From the NCBI RefSeq assembly GCF_019974155.1, contig NZ_AP025158.1, positions 682,001 to 746,000 on the forward strand: 64,000 nt of DNA, read 5' to 3'. The translations under genes were made by a program, and so were the position numbers. Positions 974 through 64,000 of this stretch are shown piece by piece. The notes under the pieces were generated by a model. The model had not been told where the DNA came from and searched no databases. It saw only the letters and a program-made list of their open reading frames with translations. The stretch's first letter is position 1; the number at the start of each line of letters is the position of its first letter. The stretch comes from Thermus thermophilus. GTDB lineage: Bacteria > Deinococcota > Deinococci > Deinococcales > Thermaceae.

Positions 974-2548
974 ATGGTGGAGATCCTGGACACCACCCTA
1001 AGGGACGGCACCCAAGGGGAGGGGGTAAGCCTCTCCGTGGACGACAAGGTGGCCATCGCCAAGCGCCTCGCCGCCTTCGGGATCCACCTCATTGAGGGGG
1101 GCTGGCCCGGCTCCAACCCCAAGGACGCCGAGTTCTTCCAGCGCATGAAGGGGGTGGACCTGGGGGCGGCGAGGCTTTGCGCCTTCGGGGCCACCCGCAG
1201 GAAGGGGCTTTCCCCGGAGGAGGACCCCTCGGTCTTGGCCCTCCTCGAGGCCGAGACCCCCGTGGTGGTCCTCTTCGGCAAGAGCTGGACCCTCCACGTC
1301 CTCGAGGCCCTGGAGACCTCCTTGGCGGAGAACCTCCGCATGGTTGAGGAGACGGTGGCCTTCTTCGCCCGGAAGGGCAGGCGGGTGGTCTACGACGCCG
1401 AGCACTTCTTTGACGGCTACAAGGAAGACCCCGCCTACGCCCTCGCCACCCTGGAGGCCGCCCTAAGGGGTGGGGCCGACACCCTGGTCCTTTGCGACAC
1501 CAACGGGGGGAGCCTCCCCGAGGAGGTCTACGCCATCACCAAGGCGGTGGTGGAGCGGTTTCCTGGGGTGAGGATCGGCATCCACCCCCACAACGACGCC
1601 GAGCTCGCCGTGGCCAACGCCCTCGCGGCGGTGCGGGCCGGGGCCACCCATGTGCAGGGCACCATCAACGGCTATGGGGAGCGGTGCGGCAACCTCAACC
1701 TCACGAGCTTCCTCCCCACCCTGGTCTTTAAGTACGGGATCCCCGCCATCCCTCCGGAAAGGCTAAAGGGCCTAAGGGAGCTTTCCCACTTCGTGGACGA
1801 GCGGGCCAACCTCACCCCCAACCGCCGCGCCCCCTACGTGGGGGAGGCGGCCTTCGCCCACAAGGCCGGGGTGCACGTCTCCGCCGTCCTCAAGAACCCC
1901 CGCACCTACGAGCACATCCCCCCGGAGTGGGTGGGGAACCAGAGGCGCTTTCTGGTCTCGGACGTGGCGGGCCGCTCCAACCTCCTCGCCAAGCTCCAGG
2001 AGCTCGGGGTGGACCTCTCCAAGGAGGAGGCGAGGCGCCTTCTGGAGGAGGTCAAGGCCCTGGAGTACGAGGGCTACGCTTTTGAGGGGGCGGAGGCGAG
2101 CTTCTACCTCCTCGCCCACCGCCTGAAGGGCGGGAGCCTCCCCTTCAGCGTGGAGGGCTTTTCTGTCTTTGTCCACGGAAGGGGCCTGGATACCGCCTGG
2201 GCCGAGGCCACGGTGCGGGTGAGGGTGGGGGAGAGCCTCCAGCACACTGCCGCGGAAAGCCCCTTCGGGCCCGTCTCCGCCCTGGACCGGGCCTTCCGCA
2301 AGGCCGTGTTGCAGTTCTACCCGGAGCTTTCCGAGGTGGAGCTCACGGACTACAAGGTGCGCATCCTCTCCGGCCAGGAGGCGGGGACGAACTCCGGGGT
2401 GCGGGTCATGGTGGAGATGAAGCGGGGAGAGGAGCGCTTCGCCACCGTGGGGGCGAGCGAGAACATCCTCGAGGCCTCCCTCAAGGCCCTCACCGACGGG
2501 TACGCCTACGCCCTCCTCTACCCGGTGCCTACGCCCAGGGGAGCCTGA
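974..2548 (+). CDS. cimA: citramalate synthase / 2-isopropylmalate synthase family
   Basis: This 524-residue DRE-TIM metallolyase starts with VEILDTTLRDGTQGEG, the catalytic DxTLRDG motif, and carries the HPHND metal-binding motif near residue 204 and the NGYGERCGN barrel motif. A LeuA-type regulatory domain fills about residues 380-515. The N-terminal pattern (GTQGEG, EGGWPG, NPKDAEFF) fits the citramalate synthase subfamily, which joins pyruvate and acetyl-CoA on the threonine-independent route to isoleucine. It follows leuA by 3 bp. Its 3' end overlaps the convergent Uma2-like gene by 20 bp. The family is certain. Substrate choice (pyruvate or another 2-oxoacid) is inferred from subfamily resemblance only. 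Confidence 0.85.
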   Translation: MVEILDTTLRDGTQGEGVSLSVDDKVAIAKRLAAFGIHLIEGGWPGSNPKDAEFFQRMKGVDLGAARLCAFGATRRKGLSPEEDPSVLALLEAETPVVVLFGKSWTLHVLEALETSLAENLRMVEETVAFFARKGRRVVYDAEHFFDGYKEDPAYALATLEAALRGGADTLVLCDTNGGSLPEEVYAITKAVVERFPGVRIGIHPHNDAELAVANALAAVRAGATHVQGTINGYGERCGNLNLTSFLPTLVFKYGIPAIPPERLKGLRELSHFVDERANLTPNRRAPYVGEAAFAHKAGVHVSAVLKNPRTYEHIPPEWVGNQRRFLVSDVAGRSNLLAKLQELGVDLSKEEARRLLEEVKALEYEGYAFEGAEASFYLLAHRLKGGSLPFSVEGFSVFVHGRGLDTAWAEATVRVRVGESLQHTAAESPFGPVSALDRAFRKAVLQFYPELSEVELTDYKVRILSGQEAGTNSGVRVMVEMKRGEERFATVGASENILEASLKALTDGYAYALLYPVPTPRGA

Positions 2549-3053
2549 CCCCGGGGAAGGCGGAAGGGCTCACCTCCTCCTCGGGGGAGAGGAGGCGGAT
2601 CTCCCGGTACCGCCCGCCCCGGGGCCTTTGGTGGACCTCCAGGAGGTTCTCCTTCAGGTTCACGAGCCAGACCTCGGGGATGCCAACTTCGGCGTAGAGG
2701 GGAAGCTTCACCTCCCGGTCAAACTCCAAGGAGGTGTCGGCCACCTCCACGAGGAGGAGGACGTCCTCCGGGGTGGGGAGGCGGTCGGCGTAGCGCTCCA
2801 GGGGGGGCTTAAGCACCAGGAGGTCCGGCTCGGGCTCGGAGTCCTCGGAAAGCCTTAGGGGGGACTGGACCGCCACCACGGCCTTTCCCTTCAGGGCTTC
2901 CTGAAGCCTGGCGTCCAACTGCGCTACCTTGTGCACGTGCTTGGGTCCGATGGGGCTCATCCGGTAGACCTCCCCCCTTAGGAGCTCCACGTGGGGCACC
3001 CCCTGGAAGGCCCGCTCAAACTCCTCTACCCGGAAGCGGTAGCGGGTGGCCAT
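2529..3053 (-). CDS. Uma2 family (DUF820) endonuclease-like protein
   Basis: This 174-residue protein has the Uma2 layout: an N-terminal segment with ELLRGEVYRMSPIG, then EPDLLVLKP, and a central LLLVEVADTSLEFDREVKLPLYAEVGIPEVWLVN block. The spaced D/E, E and K residues of the PD-(D/E)XK nuclease fold are present. Uma2 proteins are abundant in thermophiles and cyanobacteria and mostly lack a known role. A second family member lies at 12037-12558. A CATAAT hexamer sits 6 nt before the ATG, so the mRNA may be leaderless. The 3' end overlaps cimA on the other strand by 20 bp. No cognate partner gene is visible. Confidence 0.8.
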   Translation of the reverse strand: MATRYRFRVEEFERAFQGVPHVELLRGEVYRMSPIGPKHVHKVAQLDARLQEALKGKAVVAVQSPLRLSEDSEPEPDLLVLKPPLERYADRLPTPEDVLLLVEVADTSLEFDREVKLPLYAEVGIPEVWLVNLKENLLEVHQRPRGGRYREIRLLSPEEEVSPSAFPGVRLPWA

Positions 3054-3060
3054 GCCCCCA

Positions 3061-3837
3061 TTATGCCCCCTGGCCCGAGTAGCGCTTGAGGCCGAGCCGC
3101 CAGAGGAGGCGGGAAAGCCCGAGGAAGAAGAGGCCCCAAAGGAGCATGACCCAGAGCCCGGGGAAGAGGGCCACTTTCTGCCCGGCGAGGAGGGCCGCGG
3201 GAAGGTAGACGAGGTAGGGGAAGGGGGTGAGGAGGGCGAGGCCCCTTAGGGGTTCGGGGAAGACCTCGAGGGGGGCGATGGTCCCCGAGAGGAAGAGGTA
3301 GAGGAGGAAGAAGACCTCCTCCACGCTGGTGGCCCGCTCGGTCCAGAAGGTGAGCATGGCGGTGGCGTACTGCATGGTGTAGCGGAGGAGGAAGGCGAGG
3401 AGGGTGAGGCCTAGGCCCAAGAGGAAGGCCCCGGGCTCGGGCAGAAAGCGGGCCTCGGGGAAGAGGGCGAAGAAGAGGAGGGTGAGGAGGACGACGAAGG
3501 GAAGCCGGGCGAGCCTTTCTGCGGTGTGGGCGGCCAGGTGATCAAAGAAAGGGTCCAGAGGCCTGAGGAGCCTAAAGGAGAGCCTCCCCTCCACCACGTC
3601 CCGCTCAAACTCCCACACCACCCAGACCACCGTGGCCTGGCGCACCAGGAAGACCATGAGGAAGTAGCGGGCGAACTCCCCCGGGCTTAAGGGGAAGTCC
3701 CCGCCCCTTGCGGCCTCGGTCCAGACCCCCATGAGGATCAGGGGAAGCGCCCCCGCCAGGGCCCAAAGGAAAAGCTCCGCCCGGTACTCCAGCATGTAGG
3801 CCAGGTAGACGGCGAGGAGGGTCCGCGCCTTTCTCAT
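3061..3837 (-). CDS. ABC-2 type exporter permease
   Basis: This 258-residue integral membrane protein has about six hydrophobic spans and resembles the ABC-2 permeases of the COG3694/COG4587 group. It begins MRKARTLLAVYLAYMLEYRAELFLW, and the EYRAE segment also occurs, slightly changed, in the divergent permease at 4862. It overlaps the upstream ATPase gene by 4 bp (ATGA), so the two are translationally coupled. Together with the second permease it probably forms a heteromeric exporter. The substrate is unknown. The membrane topology and family are well supported; function beyond transport is not. Confidence 0.8.
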   Translation of the reverse strand: MRKARTLLAVYLAYMLEYRAELFLWALAGALPLILMGVWTEAARGGDFPLSPGEFARYFLMVFLVRQATVVWVVWEFERDVVEGRLSFRLLRPLDPFFDHLAAHTAERLARLPFVVLLTLLFFALFPEARFLPEPGAFLLGLGLTLLAFLLRYTMQYATAMLTFWTERATSVEEVFFLLYLFLSGTIAPLEVFPEPLRGLALLTPFPYLVYLPAALLAGQKVALFPGLWVMLLWGLFFLGLSRLLWRLGLKRYSGQGA

Positions 3838-4838
3838 GCCTCCTCCACCGGAAGGGGGCTTTGGAAGACCTTGGCGATGACCTCCTCTAGAGGAGGCTCC
3901 CGGACCTCGAGGTCCTCCACGGGAAGCCTCTTGAGGATCTCCGCCACCCTCTCCGTGAGCCTCTCCCGGGGCACGAGGAGCCGGGCCTCCCGCCCCTCCA
4001 AGGCCCGCACCTCCCCGAAGGGGAGGAGGGCCTCTTGGGGAAGGGGGCTTCCCAGGGTGAGGCGCACCTCCCGGTAGGGGGCGAACCGGGCCAAAAGCCC
4101 CTCGAGGGCCCCGTCGTAGAGGAGCCTTCCCTGGTGGATCACCAGGACGCGTTCAGAGAGGGCGGCGATGTCCGCCATGTAGTGGCTCGTGAGGAGGACC
4201 GTGGCCCCATAGCGGCGGTTGTACTCCCGGAGGAACTCCCGGACCGCCACCTGGGCGTTCACGTCCAGGCCCAAGGTGGGCTCGTCCAGGAAGAGGACCT
4301 CCGGGCGGTGGAGGAGGGCGGCCAAGAGCTCGGCCTTCATCCTCTCCCCCAAGGAGAGCTTCCGCACGGGCTGGTGGAGCTTCTTTTCCAGGGAAAGCAT
4401 CTCCGCAAGCTCCCCCACCCGCCTCCGGAACTCCCCTTCGGGGATCTCGTAGATGGCGGCGTTCAGGCGGAAGGAGTCCATGGCCGGGAGATCCCAGATG
4501 AGCTGCTGCTTGTTCCCCATGACCAGGGTGATCTTCCTGAGGAAGGCCTTTTCCCTCCTCCAGGGCACGTGCCCCGCCACCAGGGCCTTGCCCCTCGTGG
4601 GATGGACGAGGCCCGTGAGCATCTTGAGGGTGGTGGTCTTGCCCGCCCCGTTCGGCCCCAAAAAGCCCACCACCTCCCCGGGAAGGATCCGGAAGGAGAC
4701 CCCCTCCACCGCCCGCACCACCTGGTACCGCCTCTTCAGGAAGTGGCGCAGGGTGCCGAGGAGGGTTTCCTCCTTCAGGGCCACCCGGTAGTGCCGGGTG
4801 AGGTCTTCCGCCATCACCATGGGGCTTGCGCCCACCAT
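3834..4838 (-). CDS. ABC transporter ATP-binding protein
   Basis: This 334-residue ATPase has Walker A GPNGAGKTT (residues 61-69), a signature LSLGERMKAE near residue 168, Walker B VLFLDEPTLGLD near residue 188, and a C-terminal extension of about 90 residues. It resembles the COG4586 exporter group, which pairs with two ABC-2 permeases; those genes lie at 3061 and 4862. The ATG at 4838 is chosen because a TAGACT hexamer on the same strand sits 7 nt upstream, fitting a leaderless mRNA. GTG at 4835 or ATG at 4820 are alternatives. Substrate unknown. Confidence 0.88.
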   Translation of the reverse strand: MVGASPMVMAEDLTRHYRVALKEETLLGTLRHFLKRRYQVVRAVEGVSFRILPGEVVGFLGPNGAGKTTTLKMLTGLVHPTRGKALVAGHVPWRREKAFLRKITLVMGNKQQLIWDLPAMDSFRLNAAIYEIPEGEFRRRVGELAEMLSLEKKLHQPVRKLSLGERMKAELLAALLHRPEVLFLDEPTLGLDVNAQVAVREFLREYNRRYGATVLLTSHYMADIAALSERVLVIHQGRLLYDGALEGLLARFAPYREVRLTLGSPLPQEALLPFGEVRALEGREARLLVPRERLTERVAEILKRLPVEDLEVREPPLEEVIAKVFQSPLPVEEA

Positions 4839-4845
4839 GCCTCCA

Positions 4846-4855
4846 AGTCTACCTT
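4846..4855. promoter_or_regulatory. overlapping divergent -10 boxes of the ABC exporter genes
   Basis: Only 23 bp separate the divergent starts at 4838 (minus) and 4862 (plus). The minus strand reads TAGACT 7 nt before its ATG. The plus strand reads TACCTT 6 nt before the GTG. The two hexamers overlap by 2 bp. The plus-strand box is a weak match. This is an inference from sequence only. Confidence 0.4.
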
Positions 4856-4861
4856 GGGAGG

Positions 4862-5635
4862 GTGCGCTACCTCCGGGTCTTGCGCCTCTTCCTCCTCACC
4901 TCCTTGGCGGCGGAGATGGAGTACCGGGCGAACTTCTACCTGGGCCTCCTCTCCTCCTTCCTCACCCTCCTCGGCGCCCTCTTCGGCCTCCTCCTCCTCT
5001 ACCAGGGGGGGTACAGGCCCGGGGGGTGGCGGCTGGAGGAGGCCCTTTTGGTCCTCGCCGCCTTCACCCTGCTCCAGGGCCTCGCAAGCACCCTCCTCGC
5101 CCCCAACCTCAACAAGATCGTGGAGCACGTGCAGCAGGGGACCCTGGACTTCGTCCTCCTCAAGCCCATAGACCCCCAGTTCTGGCTCTCCGCGCGGGTC
5201 TTTTCCCCCTGGGGCCTGGGGGACTTCTTCCTGGGTTTGGGCCTCCTCCTCTACGCGGGGGTTCGCCTGGGCTTGGGCCTTGGGGGCTACGCCCTCTTCG
5301 CCTTTTACTTCCTCCTCGGGGCCCTCATGCTCTACAGCCTCTGGTTCCTCCTCGCCACCACCAGCATCTGGTTCGTGAAGATCTACAACGTGACCGAGGT
5401 GCTGAGGGGGCTCCTGGAAGCCGGGCGCTTTCCCATCTCCAGCTACCCGGCCCTCTATCGGGTCTTCTTCACCTTCGTGGTGCCCGTGGCCTTCCTCACC
5501 ACGGTGCCCGCGGAGGCGGCCTTGGGAAGGGGAGAGGCCACTTTCCTTGCCCTCCTCCTCGCCCTCTTCCTCCTGGCCCTGGCCCGGGGCTTCTTCCTCT
5601 TGGCCCTTAGGAGCTACACCTCGGCGAGCAGCTAA
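4862..5635 (+). CDS. ABC-2 type exporter permease, second subunit
   Basis: This 257-residue membrane protein has about six hydrophobic segments and the cytoplasmic motif FVLLKPIDPQFW, typical of ABC-2 permeases encoded with COG4586 ATPases. It is transcribed away from its presumed ATPase and partner permease (3061-4838), an uncommon split of a three-gene transporter set. GTG at 4862 is preferred because TACCTT lies 6 nt upstream, and a TTG at 4826 would overlap the divergent gene; a TTG at 4880 is also possible. The stop codon overlaps the convergent comZ stop by 2 bp (5632-5635), so no further gene lies between them. Confidence 0.78.
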   Translation: MRYLRVLRLFLLTSLAAEMEYRANFYLGLLSSFLTLLGALFGLLLLYQGGYRPGGWRLEEALLVLAAFTLLQGLASTLLAPNLNKIVEHVQQGTLDFVLLKPIDPQFWLSARVFSPWGLGDFFLGLGLLLYAGVRLGLGLGGYALFAFYFLLGALMLYSLWFLLATTSIWFVKIYNVTEVLRGLLEAGRFPISSYPALYRVFFTFVVPVAFLTTVPAEAALGRGEATFLALLLALFLLALARGFFLLALRSYTSASS

Positions 5636-9431: not shown

Positions 9432-10031
9432 ATGTGGGCGGTGCTCCTGGTCCTTTTCCTCGCCTACCTCTTCGGTTCCGTTCCCGCCGGGGTGCTGGTG
9501 GCCCGCACCTACGGGGTGGACCTCCGCAAAGTGGGCTCGGGGAACATCGGGGCCACCAACGTCCTGCGCGCCCTCGGGTGGGGGCCGGCTTTGGTGGTGG
9601 CCTTCTTTGACGTCTTCAAGGGCGGGATCGCCGTCCTGGTGGCCCGGGCCTTTGGCCTTTCCGACTGGATGCTGGGCGGGGTGGCCTTGATGGCCGTTCT
9701 CGGGCACAACTACTCGGTCTTCCTCCGCTTCCGCGGGGGGAAGGGGGTGGCCACGAGCTTCGGCACCCTCCTCTTCCTGGACCCCGTCTTGGCCCTTTGG
9801 ACCTTCCCCATCGGGGTGAGCGTGATGCTCCTCACCCGCTACGTCTCCGCGGGGAGCATGACCGGGGGGGTGGCGGCCTTCGTCCTCTCCCTGGCCTTGG
9901 GCAGGCCCCTTTGGGAGGTGGCCACGGTCTTCCTCATGGCCCTCCTCATCTTCTGGACCCACCGGGAAAACCTCAAGCGCCTCCAGGAGGGAACGGAGAG
10001 GCGTTTGGGGGAGCGGGTGGAGGTGCGCTAG
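9432..10031 (+). CDS. plsY: glycerol-3-phosphate acyltransferase PlsY
   Basis: This 199-residue inner-membrane protein has about five to seven hydrophobic spans and the PlsY motifs [11 protein letters not shown] near the N-terminus, [15 protein letters not shown] near residue 40, and [21 protein letters not shown] in the middle. It transfers acyl groups from acyl-phosphate to glycerol-3-phosphate in the first step of phospholipid synthesis. TAGAAT lies 8 nt before the ATG, directly after a CCCCC-AAAT-GGGGG palindrome. It is divergent from the pilin operon and close to the MNT gene. Confidence 0.93.
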
Positions 10032-10034
10032 ACT
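10029..10034 (+). promoter_or_regulatory. -10 box of a leaderless gene (MNT)
   Basis: TAGACT lies exactly 6 nt before the GTG of the nucleotidyltransferase gene and overlaps the plsY stop codon TAG. Spacing matches the leaderless pattern seen at several other genes in the window. No clear -35 box was found inside plsY. Confidence 0.45.
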
Positions 10035-10040
10035 GGAAGC

Positions 10041-10331
10041 GTGCGGAAGGAGGAGGTCCTGGCCTTGCTCCGGTCCCGTTGGCCCGAGCTATGCGCCCTG
10101 GGGGTAGCGGAGCTCTACCTCTTTGGCTCCTTGGCCCGGGGCGAGGCCCGGCCCGGGAGCGACGTGGACCTTCTGGTGGTTTTTGCTTCTCCCCCCGGTT
10201 TTGAGGGCTACTGGCGGGTAAAGGAGTTTTTGGAGTCCGTTCTGGGAAACCCCGTGGACCTGGTGATGAAGGGGGCTTTGAAGCCATGGGCGGCTCCTCA
10301 AGTGTTGAGGGAGGCCGTTCGTGTCGCGTAG
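10041..10331 (+). CDS. MNT-type nucleotidyltransferase (HEPN-MNT antitoxin)
   Basis: This 96-residue minimal nucleotidyltransferase has the core LFGSLARGEARPGSDVDLLV, i.e. GS (residues 29-30), RG and the catalytic D41-x-D43. Such MNT proteins usually act as antitoxins that AMPylate an adjacent HEPN RNase toxin. Here the HEPN gene starts at GTG 10321, inside the 3' end of this gene, but stops after 28 codons. The MNT gene itself looks intact. It has its own TAGACT box 6 nt upstream. Whether it now serves another HEPN protein elsewhere is unknown. Confidence 0.85.
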   Translation: MRKEEVLALLRSRWPELCALGVAELYLFGSLARGEARPGSDVDLLVVFASPPGFEGYWRVKEFLESVLGNPVDLVMKGALKPWAAPQVLREAVRVA

Positions 10332-10407
10332 TTATCGCCTTTTCCTGCGGGACATGTGGGAAGCCTCCGAGAAAATCTTACGGATCCTGGAGGAAGAGGA
10401 TGCTTGA
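10321..10407 (+). pseudogene. truncated HEPN toxin remnant (28 codons)
   Basis: An ORF starting at GTG 10321 overlaps the MNT stop in the usual coupled way. It encodes SRSYRLFLRDMWEASEKILR followed by ILEEEDA and then TGA. The first 20 residues fit the start of HepT/DUF86 HEPN proteins, which typically begin with R-x-Y-x-x-x-L-x-D-I-x-E-A-x-x-x-I. A full HEPN domain is about 110 residues and needs a C-terminal R-x4-6-H motif, which is missing. The bshB1 ATG at 10400 lies inside its last codons, so the bshB1 gene probably replaced the HEPN C-terminal part through a deletion. Confidence 0.6.
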
Positions 10408-11083
10408 CCTCCTGGTCATCGCCCCCCACCCCGACGACGGGGAGCTGGGCTGCGGGGGGACCCTGGCCCGGGCCAAGGCGGAGGGGCTTGCCACGGGGAT
10501 TCTGGACCTCACCCGGGGGGAGATGGGCTCCAAGGGCACCCCGGAGGAGCGGGAAAAGGAGGTGGCCGAGGCAAGCCGGATCCTGGGCCTGGACTTTAGG
10601 GGAAACCTGGGGCTTCCCGACGGGGGGCTCGCCGACGTCTTGGAGCAGCGGCTAAGGCTCGCCCAGGCCCTGAGGCGGCTTCGGCCCAGGGTGGTCCTCG
10701 CCCCCCTCGAGGCCGACCGCCACCCCGACCACACCGCGGCAAGCCGTTTGGCGGTGGCCGCGGTCCACCTGGCGGGGCTTAAGAAGGCCCCCCTGGAGGG
10801 GGAGCCTTTCCGGGTGGAGAGGCTTTTCTTCTACCCGGGGAACCACCCCTTCACCCCGAGCTTTCTGGTGAAGATCTCCGCCTTCATAGACCAGTGGGAG
10901 GCCGCGGTCCTGGCCTACCGGAGCCAGTTCACGGGGGAGGCGGCGAGCGAAACGGTGGGGCCCAAGGGGGTGGAGGCCCGCAAGGCCATGCGCCGCTACT
11001 TCGGCAACTACCTGGGGGTGGACTACGCCGAGCCTTTCGTAAGCCCTCTTCCCGTGCTTTACGTGCCCTGGTCCCGGGCCTAG
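10400..11083 (+). CDS. bshB1: PIG-L/LmbE deacetylase, bacillithiol biosynthesis BshB1
   Basis: This 227-residue zinc hydrolase starts LDLLVIAPHPDDGELGCGG, carrying the AHPDD zinc motif (residues 10-13), and has a second motif, ADRHPDHTAA, near residue 110. The length, the TRGEMGSKGTPEER segment and the GNHPF and QWxAAVLAYRSQF regions fit BshB1, which removes the acetyl group from GlcNAc-malate to make GlcN-malate, the second step of bacillithiol synthesis. ATG 10400 overlaps the truncated HEPN ORF. Other PIG-L deacetylases share the zinc motifs, so the pathway assignment is likely but rests on overall resemblance. Confidence 0.82.
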   Translation: MLDLLVIAPHPDDGELGCGGTLARAKAEGLATGILDLTRGEMGSKGTPEEREKEVAEASRILGLDFRGNLGLPDGGLADVLEQRLRLAQALRRLRPRVVLAPLEADRHPDHTAASRLAVAAVHLAGLKKAPLEGEPFRVERLFFYPGNHPFTPSFLVKISAFIDQWEAAVLAYRSQFTGEAASETVGPKGVEARKAMRRYFGNYLGVDYAEPFVSPLPVLYVPWSRA

Positions 11084-11087
11084 GCCC

Positions 11088-11117
11088 TTGCATAAGTTTG
11101 CGGGCACGGGGTATGCT
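11088..11117 (+). promoter_or_regulatory. argF promoter
   Basis: TTGCAT (11088-11093) and TATGCT (11112-11117) are separated by 18 bp. The -10 box ends 9 nt before the argF ATG, so the mRNA would have almost no leader. Confidence 0.6.
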
Positions 11118-11126
11118 TAAGGCCTC

Positions 11127-12032
11127 ATGGGGGGAGAGGCCCTGACCCTGCCCAAGGACCTTCTGGACTTTTCCGGCTACGGCCCCAAGGCGCTTCAGGC
11201 CCTTCTGGACCTGGCGGAGCGGCTAAAGCGGGAGCGCTACCGGGGGGAGGACCTCAAAGGAAAGGTCCTCGCCCTCCTCTTTGAGAAGCCCTCCTTGCGC
11301 ACCCGGACGACCCTCGAGGTGGCCATGGTCCACCTGGGGGGGCATGCCGTTTACCTGGACCAAAAGCAGGTGGGCATCGGGGAGAGGGAGCCCGTGAGGG
11401 ACGTGGCCAAGAACCTGGAGCGCTTCGTGGAGGGGATCGCCGCCCGGGTCTTTCGCCACGAGACGGTGGAGGCCCTGGCCCGCCACGCCAAGGTCCCCGT
11501 GGTGAACGCCCTCTCCGACCGCGCCCACCCCCTTCAGGCCCTGGCGGACCTCCTCACCCTGAAGGAGGCCTTCGGGGGGCTGGAGGGCCTCGAGGTGGCC
11601 TGGGTGGGGGACGGGAACAACGTCCTGAACTCCCTTCTTGAGGTGGCTCCTTTGGTGGGCCTTCGCGTCCGGGTGGCCACGCCCAAGGGGTATGAGCCGG
11701 ACCCCGCCCTCGTGCGCAAGGCGGGCGCCTTCCTCACCCACGACCCCAGGGAGGCCGCCTTGGGGGCCCACGCCCTCTACACCGACGTCTGGACCAGCAT
11801 GGGGCAGGAGGCGGAAAGGGAGAAGCGCCTTCGGGACTTCCAGGGCTTCCAGGTGAACGGGGAGTTGCTCAAGCTCCTCCACCCGGAGGGCGTCTTCCTC
11901 CACTGCCTTCCCGCCCACTACGGGGAGGAGACCACGGAGGAGGCGGTCCACGGGCCCAAAAGCCGGGTCTTTGAGCAGGCGGAAAACCGCCTCCACACCG
12001 CCAAGGCCGTGCTCCTCACCCTGCTAAAGTAG
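11127..12032 (+). CDS. argF: ornithine carbamoyltransferase
   Basis: This 301-residue transcarbamylase converts ornithine and carbamoyl phosphate to citrulline. The carbamoyl-phosphate loop SLRTR is at residues 56-60, HPLQ at 134-137, and HCLP, with the ornithine-side cysteine, at about 259-262. The VWTSMGQE motif near residue 227 is typical of ornithine rather than aspartate transcarbamylases. A recognisable promoter lies 9 nt upstream. A Uma2-like gene separates it from argC and argJ, with which it forms a partial arginine cluster (argF-uma2-argC-argJ). Confidence 0.95.
   Translation: MGGEALTLPKDLLDFSGYGPKALQALLDLAERLKRERYRGEDLKGKVLALLFEKPSLRTRTTLEVAMVHLGGHAVYLDQKQVGIGEREPVRDVAKNLERFVEGIAARVFRHETVEALARHAKVPVVNALSDRAHPLQALADLLTLKEAFGGLEGLEVAWVGDGNNVLNSLLEVAPLVGLRVRVATPKGYEPDPALVRKAGAFLTHDPREAALGAHALYTDVWTSMGQEAEREKRLRDFQGFQVNGELLKLLHPEGVFLHCLPAHYGEETTEEAVHGPKSRVFEQAENRLHTAKAVLLTLLK
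12025..12030 (+). promoter_or_regulatory. -10 box of a leaderless gene (Uma2)
   Basis: TAAAGT lies 6 nt before the ATG at 12037 and overlaps the last codons of argF. The spacing matches other leaderless starts in the window. Confidence 0.4.
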
Positions 12033-12036
12033 GGGT

Positions 12037-12558
12037 ATGGTCCGGCCCTACCGCTTTAGCCTGGAGGAGTTCCTGAGGCTTCCCCTCCCCGAGCGGGGGG
12101 TGGAGCTTCTAGAGGGAGAGGTCTACCAGATGGCGCCCATAGGCTCGAGGCACGCCCACATCTTAGACCTTTGGGTCCAGGTTTTCGTGAAGGCCTTTCA
12201 CGGAAAGGCGGGGGTGAGGGTCCAGGGTCCCTTTGTGCTTCCTCCCGACACTTATCTGGAACCCGATCTGCTCCTTTACCGCCTTGGGGACTTCCGCCAC
12301 CGCTACCCGGGGCCTGAGGACGCCCTTTTGGTTCTGGAGGTGGCCGAAAGCAGTTTGGACTACGACCTCACCAAAAAGGTCCCCCTCTACGCCAAGGCCG
12401 GGGTGCCGGAGGTCTGGGTGCAGGACCTCCTGGGGGAAAGGCTCCTCCTCTTCCGCACCCCGGAGGAAGACCACTACCGGGAGCAGATCTGGGTGAAGCC
12501 CGGGGAAAGGGTCTCTCCCTTGGCCTTTCCTGAAGCCTTCCTGGAGGCGCCGTGGTAA
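12037..12558 (+). CDS. Uma2 family (DUF820) endonuclease-like protein
   Basis: This 173-residue protein is a paralogue of the gene at 2529-3053. It shares the layout ELLEGEVYQMAPIG, EPDLLLYRLGDFRHRYPGPEDALLVLEVAESSLDYD, and LYAKAGVPEVWVQDL. The D, E and K positions of the PD-(D/E)XK nuclease core are all present. It sits inside an arginine gene run and its 3' end overlaps argC by 7 bp (stop and start interleaved), so it is likely co-transcribed with argC. Function is unknown; placement beside arginine genes probably reflects insertion rather than a metabolic role. Confidence 0.8.
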   Translation: MVRPYRFSLEEFLRLPLPERGVELLEGEVYQMAPIGSRHAHILDLWVQVFVKAFHGKAGVRVQGPFVLPPDTYLEPDLLLYRLGDFRHRYPGPEDALLVLEVAESSLDYDLTKKVPLYAKAGVPEVWVQDLLGERLLLFRTPEEDHYREQIWVKPGERVSPLAFPEAFLEAPW

Positions 12559-59443: not shown

Positions 59444-59646
59444 TCAGCATCCTCCCGGCCACCAGTGAAAGAGGGTATGGCTCCGAATCAGGCCCGGTTG
59501 GGTCTGCAGGTAGGCGCACCGGGCCTCCACCCTCGCCCAAAGCTCCTCCTCCGTCTCCACCCGCCCGTTGGCCACCACCGCGTCCACCAGGGGCCACACC
59601 CGCTCCACGGGTTGGAGCTCGGGAGAGTGATCCAGCCCCCTAAACT
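59444..59646 (-). pseudogene. IS630-family transposase, C-terminal fragment
   Basis: The minus strand encodes LDHSPELQPVERVWPLVDAVVANG and later TLFHWWPGG, the last DDE block (ending in the catalytic E of NPVERVW-type) of IS630 transposases. The upstream part is cut off at the IS3 boundary near 59647, so IS3 inserted into an IS630 gene or its remnant. Confidence 0.7.
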
Positions 59647-60686
59647 TAGACACTTTCACCCTGCCTCCCATGTGATGTCCTGTGTGCTTTGCCCCAGCGC
59701 CTCCTCCATCGCCTCCCTCGGCGTCCGATAACCGAGCCCCGAGTGCAGCCGGCTCTCGTGGTAGTAGCGTAGGCGCTCCTTCACCACCTCCTTTAGCTCC
59801 CCAAGGCTTCTGGCCTCCAAAAACTGGTCTCCTCCCTCCCCCTTGAACCGGGCAAAAAAGCTCTCCACCCCAGGGTTTCCCTTAGCCCCCATCAGGCTGT
59901 AGGAAAGCCGCTGCCCGTCCCTGAGAAGAAGCGTCCCCACCCAGTCGTGGCTCAGGAAAGGTCCCCCCTGGTCATGGTGCACCAGGGCCCTGGGGAACCT
60001 CCCCACCTGGGCCTGGAGAAAGGTCTTGGCCTCCTCCCACGCCTCCAGGGCCAGCTCCGCCGAGGGAGAAGGCCCTAAACCCCAGGCCACCACCGTCCGC
60101 GTCCTGTGGGGAACGTAGCCGCCAAGGCGGCTGACCCAGGATGGGCACGAACCAGGCCTTCCCTCCCCGGTAGGGCAGGAGGGTGAAGTCGGTGTACAAG
60201 AGCTCAAAGGGCTCCGGTTCCCTCTGCCTGAGAAGGGAGGCCCTCAAGTCTGCTCTGTCCCCGGCCAGGAGGACGATCTGCAGCAGGGGGTTGGGCTTGG
60301 GCCTCCGAACGGTGCGCTTCAGGGAGAGGTGGAAGTCCTGCAGTAGGCGGTGGACCCGTTTGTGGTTGACCAGAATGCCCTTTCTGTGGAGCTCCTTGGT
60401 GACCCGGCGGTAGCCGTACTCGGGGTGCTCCAGCAAGACCTCTTCGATGGCCCTCTTGAGGCGGAGGTCTTCCTCCTCCCTTTTCCTGTCCGCCCCAAGC
60501 TAGGCTTCGCCTGACCCACCTTCTGCTTCCGGTAGTAGTACCAGGTGGCCCGGGGGATCTCCAGAGCGCTGATTCTCCCCCTTGATGGCCTCCAGAGCTG
60601 CTTGAAACTTAACCTGTGGGGGTACCGCTTTGGGCTTCTTCACTAACCTCCCGGATGGGGTCATCCTACATCAAAGTTGGCGTCTA
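59647..60686 (-). mobile_element. IS3-family element, inactive (about 1.04 kb)
   Basis: The ends read TAGACAC (59647) and, inverted, TAGACGC (60686); flanking CCCCCTA-type sequence is also partly mirrored, so the ends may extend about 10 bp further. Within are a degraded orfA and a frameshifted orfB on the minus strand. The element separates an IS630 remnant from an IS982 remnant. Confidence 0.65.
59656..60660 (-). pseudogene. IS3-family transposase (orfA/orfB), frameshifted
   Basis: The orfB part contains LLEHPEYGYRRVTKELHRKGILVNHKRV and LLYTDFTLLPYRGGKAWFVPILG, then the frame shifts near 60130-60200 and continues as LVHHDQGGPFLSHDW, GVESFFARFKGE and YYHESRLHSGLGYRTPREAMEEAL, the integrase core with D, D and E. 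Upstream of 60437 the orfA/orfB junction is damaged. The gene is not functional as it stands. Confidence 0.75.
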
Positions 60687-60699
60687 GTCTAGGGGGTCC

Positions 60700-61149
60700 A
60701 CATCCTTCATCCCCAGCAAGCGGGTCTACTTCCACGGCCTCAAGCTCCACCTCCTGGTGGACGACGGGAAGTTCATCCACGAGGTGAACCTGACCCCGGG
60801 AAGCCTTCATGACCTCGCCTCCCTTCTCCTCCTTCCCCTGGACCTTCCCGAGGGGGCGGAGCTCTACCTGGACCGGGGGTACGAGAGCCATCTGTACGAG
60901 GACCTTCTTCGGGAGGCGCAGGGGGTTGCTCCCATGGTCATCCGCAGGAGGAACAGTCGGCGGTACCTCCCTTGGATGCAGTACCTGGCCATCGTGGGGC
61001 GGAGGGTGGTGGAGACGGTGGGGGGGATGCTTCACGCCATGTTTCCCAGGCGCATCCACGCCGTGACTCAGGAGGGCTTTGTCATCAAGGTCCTCACCTT
61101 CGTCCTGGCCCATAACATCAGTCTCCTGGCCCAGAAGATGGCTGGGTAG
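60700..61149 (+). pseudogene. IS982-family transposase, C-terminal fragment
   Basis: The frame contains SKRVYFHGLKLHLLVDDGKF, GSLHDLASLLLLPLDLPEGAELYLDRGYESHLYEDLL and ending in FVLAHNISLLAQKMAG, the C-terminal half of an IS982 transposase with its second D and the E region. It begins abruptly at the IS3 edge. The 14 bp after its TAG lead straight to a solo CRISPR repeat. Confidence 0.75.
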
Positions 61150-61163
61150 CAACTTGGGTGATA

Positions 61164-61191
61164 GTAGTCCCCACGCACGTGGGGATGGACC
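61164..61191 (+). CRISPR. orphan CRISPR repeat, type I-E-like (single unit)
   Basis: A 28-bp sequence starts GTAGTCCCCACG and ends GTGGGGATGGACC, with the stem CCCCAC/GTGGGG. From memory, the T. thermophilus type I-E repeat has the same form with GCGT instead of GCAC in the loop. Only one unit is present: no second repeat, spacer or cas gene lies nearby. It sits between the end of an IS982 remnant and the pxpA stop codon. Confidence 0.75.
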
Positions 61192-61195
61192 AACG

Positions 61196-61948
61196 CTAGA
61201 AGGCCCGCACCTCCACCCCCGCCTCTTCCAGGGCCTTCCGCACCGCCCTCGCCACCTCGGGGGCGTTGGGGTTGTCCCCGTGGATGCAAAGCGTCTCGGC
61301 CCGCACCTCCACCTCTCCGCCGTCTAAGGCCTCCACCTTCCCCTCCAGCACCATGCGCAAGGCCCTCCGGGCCGCCTCCTTGGGGTCGGTGATCCAGGAA
61401 CCCGGCATGGAGCGGGGGGCGAGCTGGCCGTTTCGCAGGTAGGCCCTTTCAGGGAAGGCCTCGAGGACCACCCTTAGCCCCGCCTTCCGCGCCTCCTCCT
61501 CGTACACCGTCCCCGGGAGGACCACGAGGGGAAGCCCCGGGTCAAAGGCCTTCACCGCCAGGGCGATGGCCCTCGCCGTCTCCCGGTCCTTGCAGGCCTT
61601 GAGGTAAAGCGCCCCGTGGGGCTTGACGTGGTGGAGGGGAAGGCCCTCCGCCCTAAGGAAGGCGGAGAGGGCCCCCACCTGGTAGAGCACGTCGGCGTAG
61701 ACTTCCTCCGGGGAAAGGGCCATCTCCCTTCGGCCAAAGCCCACGAGGTCGGGAAAGCCCGGGTGGGCCCCCACGGCCACGCCGTGGGCCTTGGCCAGGC
61801 GCACCGCCTCCAGGATCCGGCCCGGGCTTCCCCCGTGGAAGCCGCAGGCCAGGTTGGCCGAGGTGACCAGGGGGAAGATCTCCTGGTCATGGCCGTAGGC
61901 GAAGGGCCCGTAGGACTCGCCCGCGTCCGCGTTCAGGTCCACCGTCAT
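61196..61948 (-). CDS. pxpA: 5-oxoprolinase subunit PxpA (LamB/YcsF family)
   Basis: This 250-residue protein starts VDLNADAGESYGPFAYGHD, the PxpA signature, and has TSANLACGFHGGSPG, GVAVGAHPGFPDLVGFGRREM, HVKPHGALY and ETLCIHGDNPNAPEVA. PxpA acts with PxpB and PxpC to open 5-oxoproline with ATP; those two genes are not in the window. ATG 61948 is preferred because AAAGGAGGCGGC precedes it. It is the last gene of a minus-strand run with a metallo-hydrolase and a TRAP transporter, which may import the substrate or a related acid. Confidence 0.9.
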   Translation of the reverse strand: MTVDLNADAGESYGPFAYGHDQEIFPLVTSANLACGFHGGSPGRILEAVRLAKAHGVAVGAHPGFPDLVGFGRREMALSPEEVYADVLYQVGALSAFLRAEGLPLHHVKPHGALYLKACKDRETARAIALAVKAFDPGLPLVVLPGTVYEEEARKAGLRVVLEAFPERAYLRNGQLAPRSMPGSWITDPKEAARRALRMVLEGKVEALDGGEVEVRAETLCIHGDNPNAPEVARAVRKALEEAGVEVRAF

Positions 61949-61959
61949 GCCGCCTCCTT

Positions 61960-62646
61960 TCAAAGTTTAAGCGTCACCTTGGCCCCGTGGGGGAGGGCGA
62001 CCTCCAGGCAGGCCTCGCCCTCGGGAAGGAAGCGGCCCCCCTCGCGCCGCAAGGGGACGTCGTGCCCCGGAAAGAGCCTGGGGAAGCCCCAAAGGCGCTC
62101 CCGGCTCTTGAGGGCCGCCTCCGGGTCCAGGCAGGGAGGGGCCGGCGGGCCCTCGAGGTCAAAGCGGCTCTTCACGGCATCGCTTACCAAGACGCCTACC
62201 CCCTTTACGGCCAGACCCAAAAGCCCCGGGGTGTGGCCGGGAAGGCGGAGCAGGGAAAGCCCCGCCGCCAAAGGCCCCTCCAGAACGGCGGTAAGCCGGG
62301 AAAGGGCCTTGGGCAGGTGGGCGAGGCAGGCGGGGTCCAGCCTGGGGTCCTTGGCCACCCGCTCGGCGTGGCGGAGCTCCGCCTCGTGGACGTAGACCTC
62401 GGCCCAGGGGAAGAGGTCGGCGTTGGCCGCGTGGTCAAAGTGGAGGTGGCTCAGGACCACCCCTGTCACGTCCAAGGGGGAGACGCCCAGGGCCTCGAGG
62501 CGGGCGTACAGCCCCTCCCGCTCCCCGAAGCCCAGGGTGTCGTAGAGGAGAAGCCTTGGCCCCACCACCAGGTAGGCGCCGGAAAGCCCCAGGTAGCCCC
62601 GGTGGCTCCTGCCCGGAAACCCGGTGTAGACGGGGACCACCTCCAC
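61960..62646 (-). CDS. metallo-beta-lactamase-fold hydrolase
   Basis: This 228-residue protein has the zinc motif VVLSHLHFDHAAN (HxHxDH) near residue 66, HTPGLLGLAVKGVGVLVSDAV later, and GHDVP near the end, the metal ligands of the MBL fold. It starts VEVVPVYTGFPGRSHRGYLGLSGAYLVVG. GTG 62646 follows GGGAGGG at good spacing, just after the dctM stop. The pxpA gene follows after 11 bp. The substrate is unknown; a lactonase or glyoxalase-type role is possible. Confidence 0.8.
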   Translation of the reverse strand: MEVVPVYTGFPGRSHRGYLGLSGAYLVVGPRLLLYDTLGFGEREGLYARLEALGVSPLDVTGVVLSHLHFDHAANADLFPWAEVYVHEAELRHAERVAKDPRLDPACLAHLPKALSRLTAVLEGPLAAGLSLLRLPGHTPGLLGLAVKGVGVLVSDAVKSRFDLEGPPAPPCLDPEAALKSRERLWGFPRLFPGHDVPLRREGGRFLPEGEACLEVALPHGAKVTLKL

Positions 62647-62648
62647 GC

Positions 62649-63950
62649 CTACCCTCCCGTCATCGTCCGGGGAAGCCAGGTGGCGAGCCCCGGGAAGGCC
62701 ACCAGGAGGGCCACCATGAGGAGGAGCACGCCCATGAAGGGCAGGCTGTAGCGGGCGATGCGGAAAAGGTCTTCCCCGCTCAAGGACTGGAGGACGAAGA
62801 GGTTGAACCCCACGGGCGGGGTGATCTGGGCGAGCTCCACCATGATGACCAGGTACACCCCGAACCACAGAGGGTCCACCCCGATGGCCTTGACCACGGG
62901 CAGGATGACGCTGATGGTGAGGACCACGATGGAGATGCCGTCCAAGAACCAGCCCAGGACGATGTAGACCAGGCTTAGGAAAAGGATGAGGAGCAGGGGA
63001 GTGATCCCCGCCTCCACCGCCCAGGCGGCCAGGGCTCTGGGAATGCCGGTGAAGCCCATGGCCAGGGTGAGCACCCCGGCCCCCGCCAGGATGAGGCCGA
63101 TCATGCTCGTGGTGCGCACCGCCCCGAGAAGGCTTTGGCGGAAGGTGTCCAGGGAAAGCTCCCGGTTTAGGGCGGCGAGGAAAAGCGCCCCCACCACCCC
63201 GATGGCCGCCGCCTCCGTGGGGGTGGCCACCCCCAGGTAGATGGAGCCCAGGACCAAGAGGATCAGGAAGAGGATGGGAAGGACGCCCAACAGGCTCTTC
63301 AAGGCCTCCCCGAGGGGCTTAGGGGGTTCCTGGGGGAGTTCGCCCCGGCGGGCCAGGGCGAGGAGGGCCAGGAGGAGCATGAAGAGCAGGGTGAGGACCA
63401 CCCCCGGCACCACCCCGGCCATGAAGAGCCGGGCCACGGAGACCTCGGCCATCACCCCGTAGACGATCATGACGACGCTCGGGGGGATGAGGAAGCCCAA
63501 GGTGCCCGCCCCCGCCAAGGAGCCCAGGGCCAAGGGCTTGGGGTAACCCCGGCGCAGGAGTTCGGGCAGGGTGAAGCGGCCCACGGTGGCGGTGGTGGCC
63601 GCCGAGGAGCCGATGACCGCGGCGAAGAGGGCGCTGGCCACCACGTTCACGTGGAGGAGCCCCCCGGGCAGGCGGGAGAGAAGGGGGCTTAAGCCTTGGA
63701 AAAGCCCCTGGGCCAGCCGGGAGCGGTAGAGGATCTCCCCCATCCAGACGAAGAGGGGCAGGGCGGCTAGGCTAAAGCCCGAGGTGCTGGTCCAAAGGGC
63801 GGTGGCCAGGTTGGGCCCCGGAGGGGCGGAGGTGAGGAAGGCGAGACCGAAGAGGCCCACGAGAAGGAGGGCCAGGCCCACGTAGACCCCGAGGGCGAGG
63901 AGCAGGAAGAGGCCGAGGACCAGGAGGAGGCCCGCCTCGAGGAGGCTCAC
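62649..63950 (-). CDS. dctM: TRAP transporter large permease (DctM family)
   Basis: This 433-residue membrane protein has about twelve spans and DctM features: LPLFVWMGEILYRSRLAQGLFQGLSPLLSRLPGGLLHVNVVASALFAAVIGSSAATTATVG, LGFLIPPSVVMIVYGVMAEVSVARLFMAGVVPG, and PVVKAIGVDPLWFGV. It moves organic acids with Na+ in partnership with a small permease and a binding protein. GTG 63950 overlaps the upstream small-subunit gene by 4 bp (GTGA). Confidence 0.9.
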   Translation of the reverse strand: MSLLEAGLLLVLGLFLLLALGVYVGLALLLVGLFGLAFLTSAPPGPNLATALWTSTSGFSLAALPLFVWMGEILYRSRLAQGLFQGLSPLLSRLPGGLLHVNVVASALFAAVIGSSAATTATVGRFTLPELLRRGYPKPLALGSLAGAGTLGFLIPPSVVMIVYGVMAEVSVARLFMAGVVPGVVLTLLFMLLLALLALARRGELPQEPPKPLGEALKSLLGVLPILFLILLVLGSIYLGVATPTEAAAIGVVGALFLAALNRELSLDTFRQSLLGAVRTTSMIGLILAGAGVLTLAMGFTGIPRALAAWAVEAGITPLLLILFLSLVYIVLGWFLDGISIVVLTISVILPVVKAIGVDPLWFGVYLVIMVELAQITPPVGFNLFVLQSLSGEDLFRIARYSLPFMGVLLLMVALLVAFPGLATWLPRTMTGG

Positions 63951-64000
63951 GGGGCCACCCCCTTCAGGGCCCGGAGGAAGGCCTCGAGGAGGGCCAGGGC
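63947..64000 (-). CDS. TRAP transporter small permease (DctQ), C-terminal end
   Basis: The minus strand contains the last 17 codons of a gene entering from the window edge, ending LLEAFLRALKGVAP and TGA 63947. Coupling by GTGA to dctM and its position identify it as the likely DctQ small subunit. The binding protein gene probably lies beyond. The sequence alone is too short to prove the family. Confidence 0.55.
   Translation of the reverse strand, partial: ALALLEAFLRALKGVAP

Follow-up and report, generated by a model that had tools for sequence, protein, structure and literature searches.

A lone type I-E CRISPR repeat beside pxpA in Thermus as the probable terminal repeat of a lost array

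A single CRISPR repeat that stands between the remnant of an insertion sequence (IS) and the stop codon of a conserved gene raises the question of how it came to be there: it could be what is left of an array, a part of the IS, or a unit with a function of its own. The answer developed here rests on the position of the repeat as much as on its letters.

The repeat and the missing type I-E components

The lone unit, GTAGTCCCCACGCACGTGGGGATGGACC, is a perfect 28-bp type I-E CRISPR repeat at positions 61164 to 61191 (+ strand) of the window, the term used here for the whole 64,000-nucleotide stretch of DNA that was analysed. An earlier, sequence-only reading had placed a single isolated unit at exactly these coordinates, and targeted searches of the 2.17-Mb genome found the repeat core nowhere else, so that the 28-mer is present once. 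Within the window no second I-E-like repeat was found at up to 8 mismatches in 28, and a relaxed search of the genome returned only scattered matches with three mismatches, as expected by chance. For the unit itself, shuffles of the window give a chance expectation of zero even when three mismatches are allowed. A CRISPR array comprises at least two repeats and a spacer, and one copy only was found at this site; Rfam matches were all below threshold.

A 28-mer identical to the lone unit builds true arrays in many Thermus genomes, with a period of about 61 bp and leaders mostly ending in CATGT, which bears out the earlier description of the repeat as I-E-like. The GCAC loop, previously taken as a departure from the canonical form, is not aberrant; the loops GCAC, GCGT, GCAT, GCCC, ACGC and others coexist among Thermus I-E repeats, so that GCAC falls within normal variation and GCGT, the loop of the HB8 I-E repeat, is one variant among several.

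A functional type I-E system is recognised here by its Cse1 and Cas6e genes. Neither Cse1 (PF09481) nor Cas6e (PF08798) was found in the genome, and with the latter no enzyme for processing I-E repeats was found. When 12.8 kb of HB8 DNA spanning the cas-E genes was used as a query against the genome, it recovered the repeat alone, along with scattered matches of 30-72 bp that are at chance level. No I-E leader end was found in the genome at three mismatches. The unit has no spacer, leader or partner repeat, and both the Cas6e that would cleave it and the Cascade that would employ it are missing; it is therefore not expected to play a role in immunity, and we infer that it is most likely an inert fossil.

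The genome does contain other CRISPR arrays and Cas1 genes of different kinds. One of these arrays, with the repeat core TTTTGACCGTACCTATGAGGG (L190, about 9880-12100; contig C1 near 1.98 Mb), runs into IS630-like sequence resembling window positions 59444-59671, and thus a second array of the same genome has been struck by IS elements.

The pxpA address and its arrays on T. thermophilus plasmids

The repeat is separated by a 4-bp spacer, AACG (61192-61195), from pxpA (61196-61963, - strand), which encodes a 5-oxoprolinase subunit of the LamB/YcsF family (PF03746, E = 1.3e-96); the stop codon begins at 61196, in agreement with the 4-bp distance reported earlier. The gene is a conserved neighbour that shares 93-94% nucleotide identity with pxpA of T. 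thermophilus, a divergence of about 6%, and is followed by annotated genes for an MBL hydrolase and a TRAP permease (61960-64000, - strand). Collinearity of the window with T. thermophilus TF24, AA3-7 and NAR1 starts at position 61164, where the repeat itself starts, and continues across pxpA and both of these genes, at 89-93% identity and over as much as 2838 bp (blastn, 89% over 61164-64000); the hydrolase and permease genes are also collinear with those of JL-18. Alignment of the junction shows GGACC-AACG here and GGGCC-GGCG in the terminal repeats of T. thermophilus, so that two of the four spacer bases differ.

In a comparison using one genome per species no repeat was found at pxpA in the relatives, which made the unit look unique to the present genome; the orthologous arrays came to light in a collection of plasmids, in which 26 Thermus records carry pxpA and 22 of these were examined. 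Of the 22 records, 14 (HB8, HB8_001, NAR1, TF19, TF21, TF24, TF25, TF27, TF28, AA3-7, AA2-2, AA2-20, AA2-29 and SNM7-6) have a full I-E array of 4-33 repeats that is separated from the pxpA stop codon by exactly 4 bp, and in all 14 the repeat nearest pxpA is the leader-distal one, with the leader and the cas2e-cas1e-cas6e operon on the far side. The comparison with other Thermus strains that the sequence-only reading had proposed thus does reveal an array at this locus. Three further records (HB27, HC11 and an HB27 derivative) have a single repeat, likewise 4 bp from the stop codon, and in JL-18 and SNM6-6 an ATPase gene separates the full I-E array from pxpA, at a distance of about 1.3 kb.

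Taken together, the shared position and the start of collinearity at 61164 identify the lone repeat as the ortholog of the leader-distal terminal repeat of these arrays. As in the pTT27-type array, which in HB8 has 21 repeats extending from cas2e to pxpA, the repeat belongs to the same family, has the same orientation and lies 4 bp from the pxpA stop codon; it differs in being a single repeat, without spacers, leader or cas-E genes, that lies on a 2.15-Mb contig with an IS982 end 4 bp upstream. The preferred explanation, to which we assign a probability of roughly 0.93, is that the unit is the terminal repeat of a lost type I-E array that lay between pxpA and the cas-E operon, and that an IS982 element inserted 4 bp upstream of it. 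The suggestion that the unit is the last scar of a vanished array is therefore strongly supported by its positional orthology with complete arrays. The ancestral state is read here from T. thermophilus rather than from a sister strain, and a competing history, in which the pxpA block was gained by transfer after the array had been lost elsewhere, may apply and would count against this explanation. Also against it stand the differences at the junction described above and the missing left end of the IS982 element.

The laboratory strain HB27 and HC11 offer the closest likeness, namely one repeat at the 4-bp spacing without adjoining I-E cas genes. Theirs, however, has about 18 bp of I-E leader before it and lies directly beyond a type I-C array with its cas genes (HB27 pTT27, L228:5001-5028; HC11, L236), whereas the present repeat adjoins an IS982 end in a genome where no type I-C Cas8c was found. 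In HB27 and HC11 it looks as if the I-E locus had been replaced by I-C, a different path to a single repeat from the one proposed for the present genome. A published table of HB27 repeats lists types I-B, I-C and III only, and no I-E repeat (PMC10989782). A leader stub with one I-E repeat is also seen about 1.3 kb from pxpA, with the ATPase gene between, in SG0.5JP17-16 (L225:5001-5028), SNM3-3 (L226:5001-5028) and SNM1-7 (L227:5001-5028).

Two other pxpA neighbourhoods can be recorded. In one genome (G014, L184:10985-11012) an imperfect I-E-like palindrome, GCAGTTCCCACGCACGTGGGAAGGGGGC, is located about 115 bp from pxpA; it has six mismatches, with one stem pair changed on both sides, and is perhaps a decayed repeat or a chance occurrence, and it was left out of the count of repeats. 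In another species (G005, L185:54-557 and 2078-4893) the TRAP-MBL-pxpA block is the same, and an I-E array flanks it on the other side. BLAST similarities at spacer ends and trailers (for example G014:C17 and G005:C28) were judged to be due to chance, the match being pxpA coding sequence or a few bases.

Insertion sequences and the loss of the array

On the side away from pxpA the repeat is flanked by the right-hand fragment of an IS982-type element (60705-61159, + strand), the left end of which is missing. The fragment shares 94% identity with a NAR1 copy that is annotated as an IS982 family transposase. The transposase frame of the fragment stops at 61149, and its right inverted repeat (...CAACTTGGGT) ends at 61159, leaving a gap of 4 bp (GATA) before the CRISPR repeat. 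The distance of 14 bp given earlier holds for the transposase frame but not for the end of the element. In other Thermus genomes, the IS982 copies that align well stop at the base corresponding to 61159, and the DNA beyond them is unrelated. This rules out the repeat as part of the IS982 ends; the 28-mer as a common feature of such ends, named beforehand as grounds for giving up the CRISPR identification, was looked for in the copies elsewhere and is not there.

The order of events can be approached through target duplications. Two IS982 copies with both ends readable have duplications of 7 bp (GATTGTA, L155) and 8 bp (TACGAGTA, NAR1). By analogy, the presumed right copy of the duplication in the window would be GATAGTA (61160-61166), of which GTA makes up the first three bases of the repeat. 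If this IS982 made a duplication of 7-8 bp like the others, the duplicated target took in the first repeat bases, and the repeat would have been in place before the element arrived; as this IS982 has lost its left end along with the duplication there, the order is argued by analogy with the other copies.

Beyond the IS982 fragment, where the array would have continued, lies an IS3-type element (59635-60700, - strand) with HTH_21 and rve_3 domains, its approximate ends read by eye from inverted repeats. The left flank as a whole is an IS cluster followed by genes of pTT27 type (AbrB-PIN and ribonucleotide reductase, 94-95% identical to HB8) in altered order. A simple inversion was considered for the surroundings of pxpA and rejected, as the blocks keep one orientation while their order changes.

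A sequence of events consistent with this anatomy would begin with a type I-E array between pxpA and the cas-E operon, as is still the case in T. thermophilus HB8, TF24, AA3-7 and others. An IS982 element would then have inserted at the boundary between the last spacer and the last repeat, and what remained of the array would have been lost, together with the leader and the cas-E operon, through later IS insertions and rearrangement. The earlier proposal that the array was lost through IS activity fits the IS982 end 4 bp upstream, the IS cluster at the place of the array and the interruption of the same locus in NAR1 by an element of this kind; as the cause of the loss, IS activity is likely rather than demonstrated.

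In NAR1 (plasmid 4, L249:4331-5221) an IS982 flanked by the 8-bp duplication noted above occupies the place of cas5e, with cas6e on one side and cas7e on the other. This copy is 94% identical to the IS982 of the window, and with cas5e so interrupted the I-E system of NAR1 is probably inactive.

Alternative origins and other lone repeats

The alternative that survives best differs from the preferred explanation only in the agent that removed the spacers: the array would have collapsed by recombination between its first and last repeats before any IS was present, and IS982 would have landed beside the single repeat by chance. Collapse to one repeat is a recognised possibility, in which the terminal repeat alone is left, as here (PMC8047081), and a leader end followed by one repeat is what is found in HB27, HC11, SG0.5JP17-16, SNM1-7 and SNM3-3. 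A collapsed array should, however, keep its leader end (CATGT or CATGC) before the repeat, whereas in the window the repeat is preceded by GATA and the genome is without an I-E leader. With the leader gone, loss by IS insertion and rearrangement is the probable course, and collapse by repeat recombination an unlikely one, though it is the only alternative of some weight.

Much less probable is the view that the repeat, whatever its origin, has been retained because it gives the pxpA mRNA a 3′ hairpin, which would act in stability or termination. The unit folds to -14.3 kcal/mol, and its distance from the stop codon is a constant 4 bp in all strains without the intervening ATPase gene, whether or not they have an array. 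Inheritance from the array already explains the spacing, however, and the fold is only modestly better than that of shuffled sequences (z of -1.1 to -1.9 on the pxpA strand), with no U-rich tail and no terminator-like site. Nor does the intactness of the repeat need selection, given that the neighbouring pxpA has itself diverged by only about 6% from T. thermophilus. It is similarly improbable that the terminal repeats at pxpA, here and in the HB27-type strains, are retained for any function, be it this hairpin or a landing pad, to be refilled by an I-E adaptation module entering the cell. In the laboratory, primed adaptation has refilled a collapsed I-F array in Legionella (PMC8047081).

A solitary, intergenic, repeat-like unit without cas genes also fits the definition of the solitary repeat units (SRUs) that serve as RNA anti-CRISPRs (Racr) on mobile elements (PMC10651486). 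The present unit is not on a phage, and matching repeats are absent from the viral contigs and phage records searched; no promoter-like site was found at 60600-62100 in a scan confined to the sigma-70 consensus; the host offers no I-E system as a target, Cse1 and Cas6e being absent; and the position is orthologous to array ends. An anti-CRISPR role is accordingly given hardly any credence. Since an eroding array can leave a solitary repeat behind on a plasmid or chromosome, RNA anti-CRISPR screens should first test for positional orthology with array ends.

The Cas1-Cas2 enzyme inserts spacers and duplicates its target rather than inserting a repeat. Although the repeat adjoins an IS end and has no leader, its derivation from IS982, whose copies elsewhere stop short of any such sequence, or its insertion alone by off-target Cas1-Cas2 is almost certainly wrong; the leader-independent integration suggested earlier finds no support, because the site is the ancestral address of the array.

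A terminal repeat left behind by a lost array, as in the preferred explanation, is of a known kind; remnants of arrays, CRISPR loci invaded by IS elements and collapsed arrays are all familiar. No paper on these lone I-E repeats was found in an incomplete search of the literature, which is weak evidence of novelty. The value of the locus is that a conserved address 4 bp past pxpA lets the loss of an I-E locus be followed by stages within the T. thermophilus group: some strains have the array intact, in NAR1 cas5e is interrupted by IS982, in HB27 and SG0.5JP17-16 type I-C has taken the place of I-E and a leader stub and one repeat are left, and in the present genome an IS scar is what survives.

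Isolated I-E repeats and orphan arrays are encountered at other addresses as well. One genome (G020, L263:3979-4188) has a four-repeat I-E array and no Cse1 that could be found, and thus an orphan array. Two others, both without Cse1 (G002, L186:9373-9400; G012, L261:5390-5417), have one lone I-E repeat each, next to a small gene that is the same in both and is truncated at its 3′ end (...FALAAWAGWELWQAYRR), and the I-E array of a further genome (G017, L262:4601-4628) also ends beside a fragment of that gene. The truncation points of the small gene are not the same, and the repeat of G002 is in the opposite orientation.
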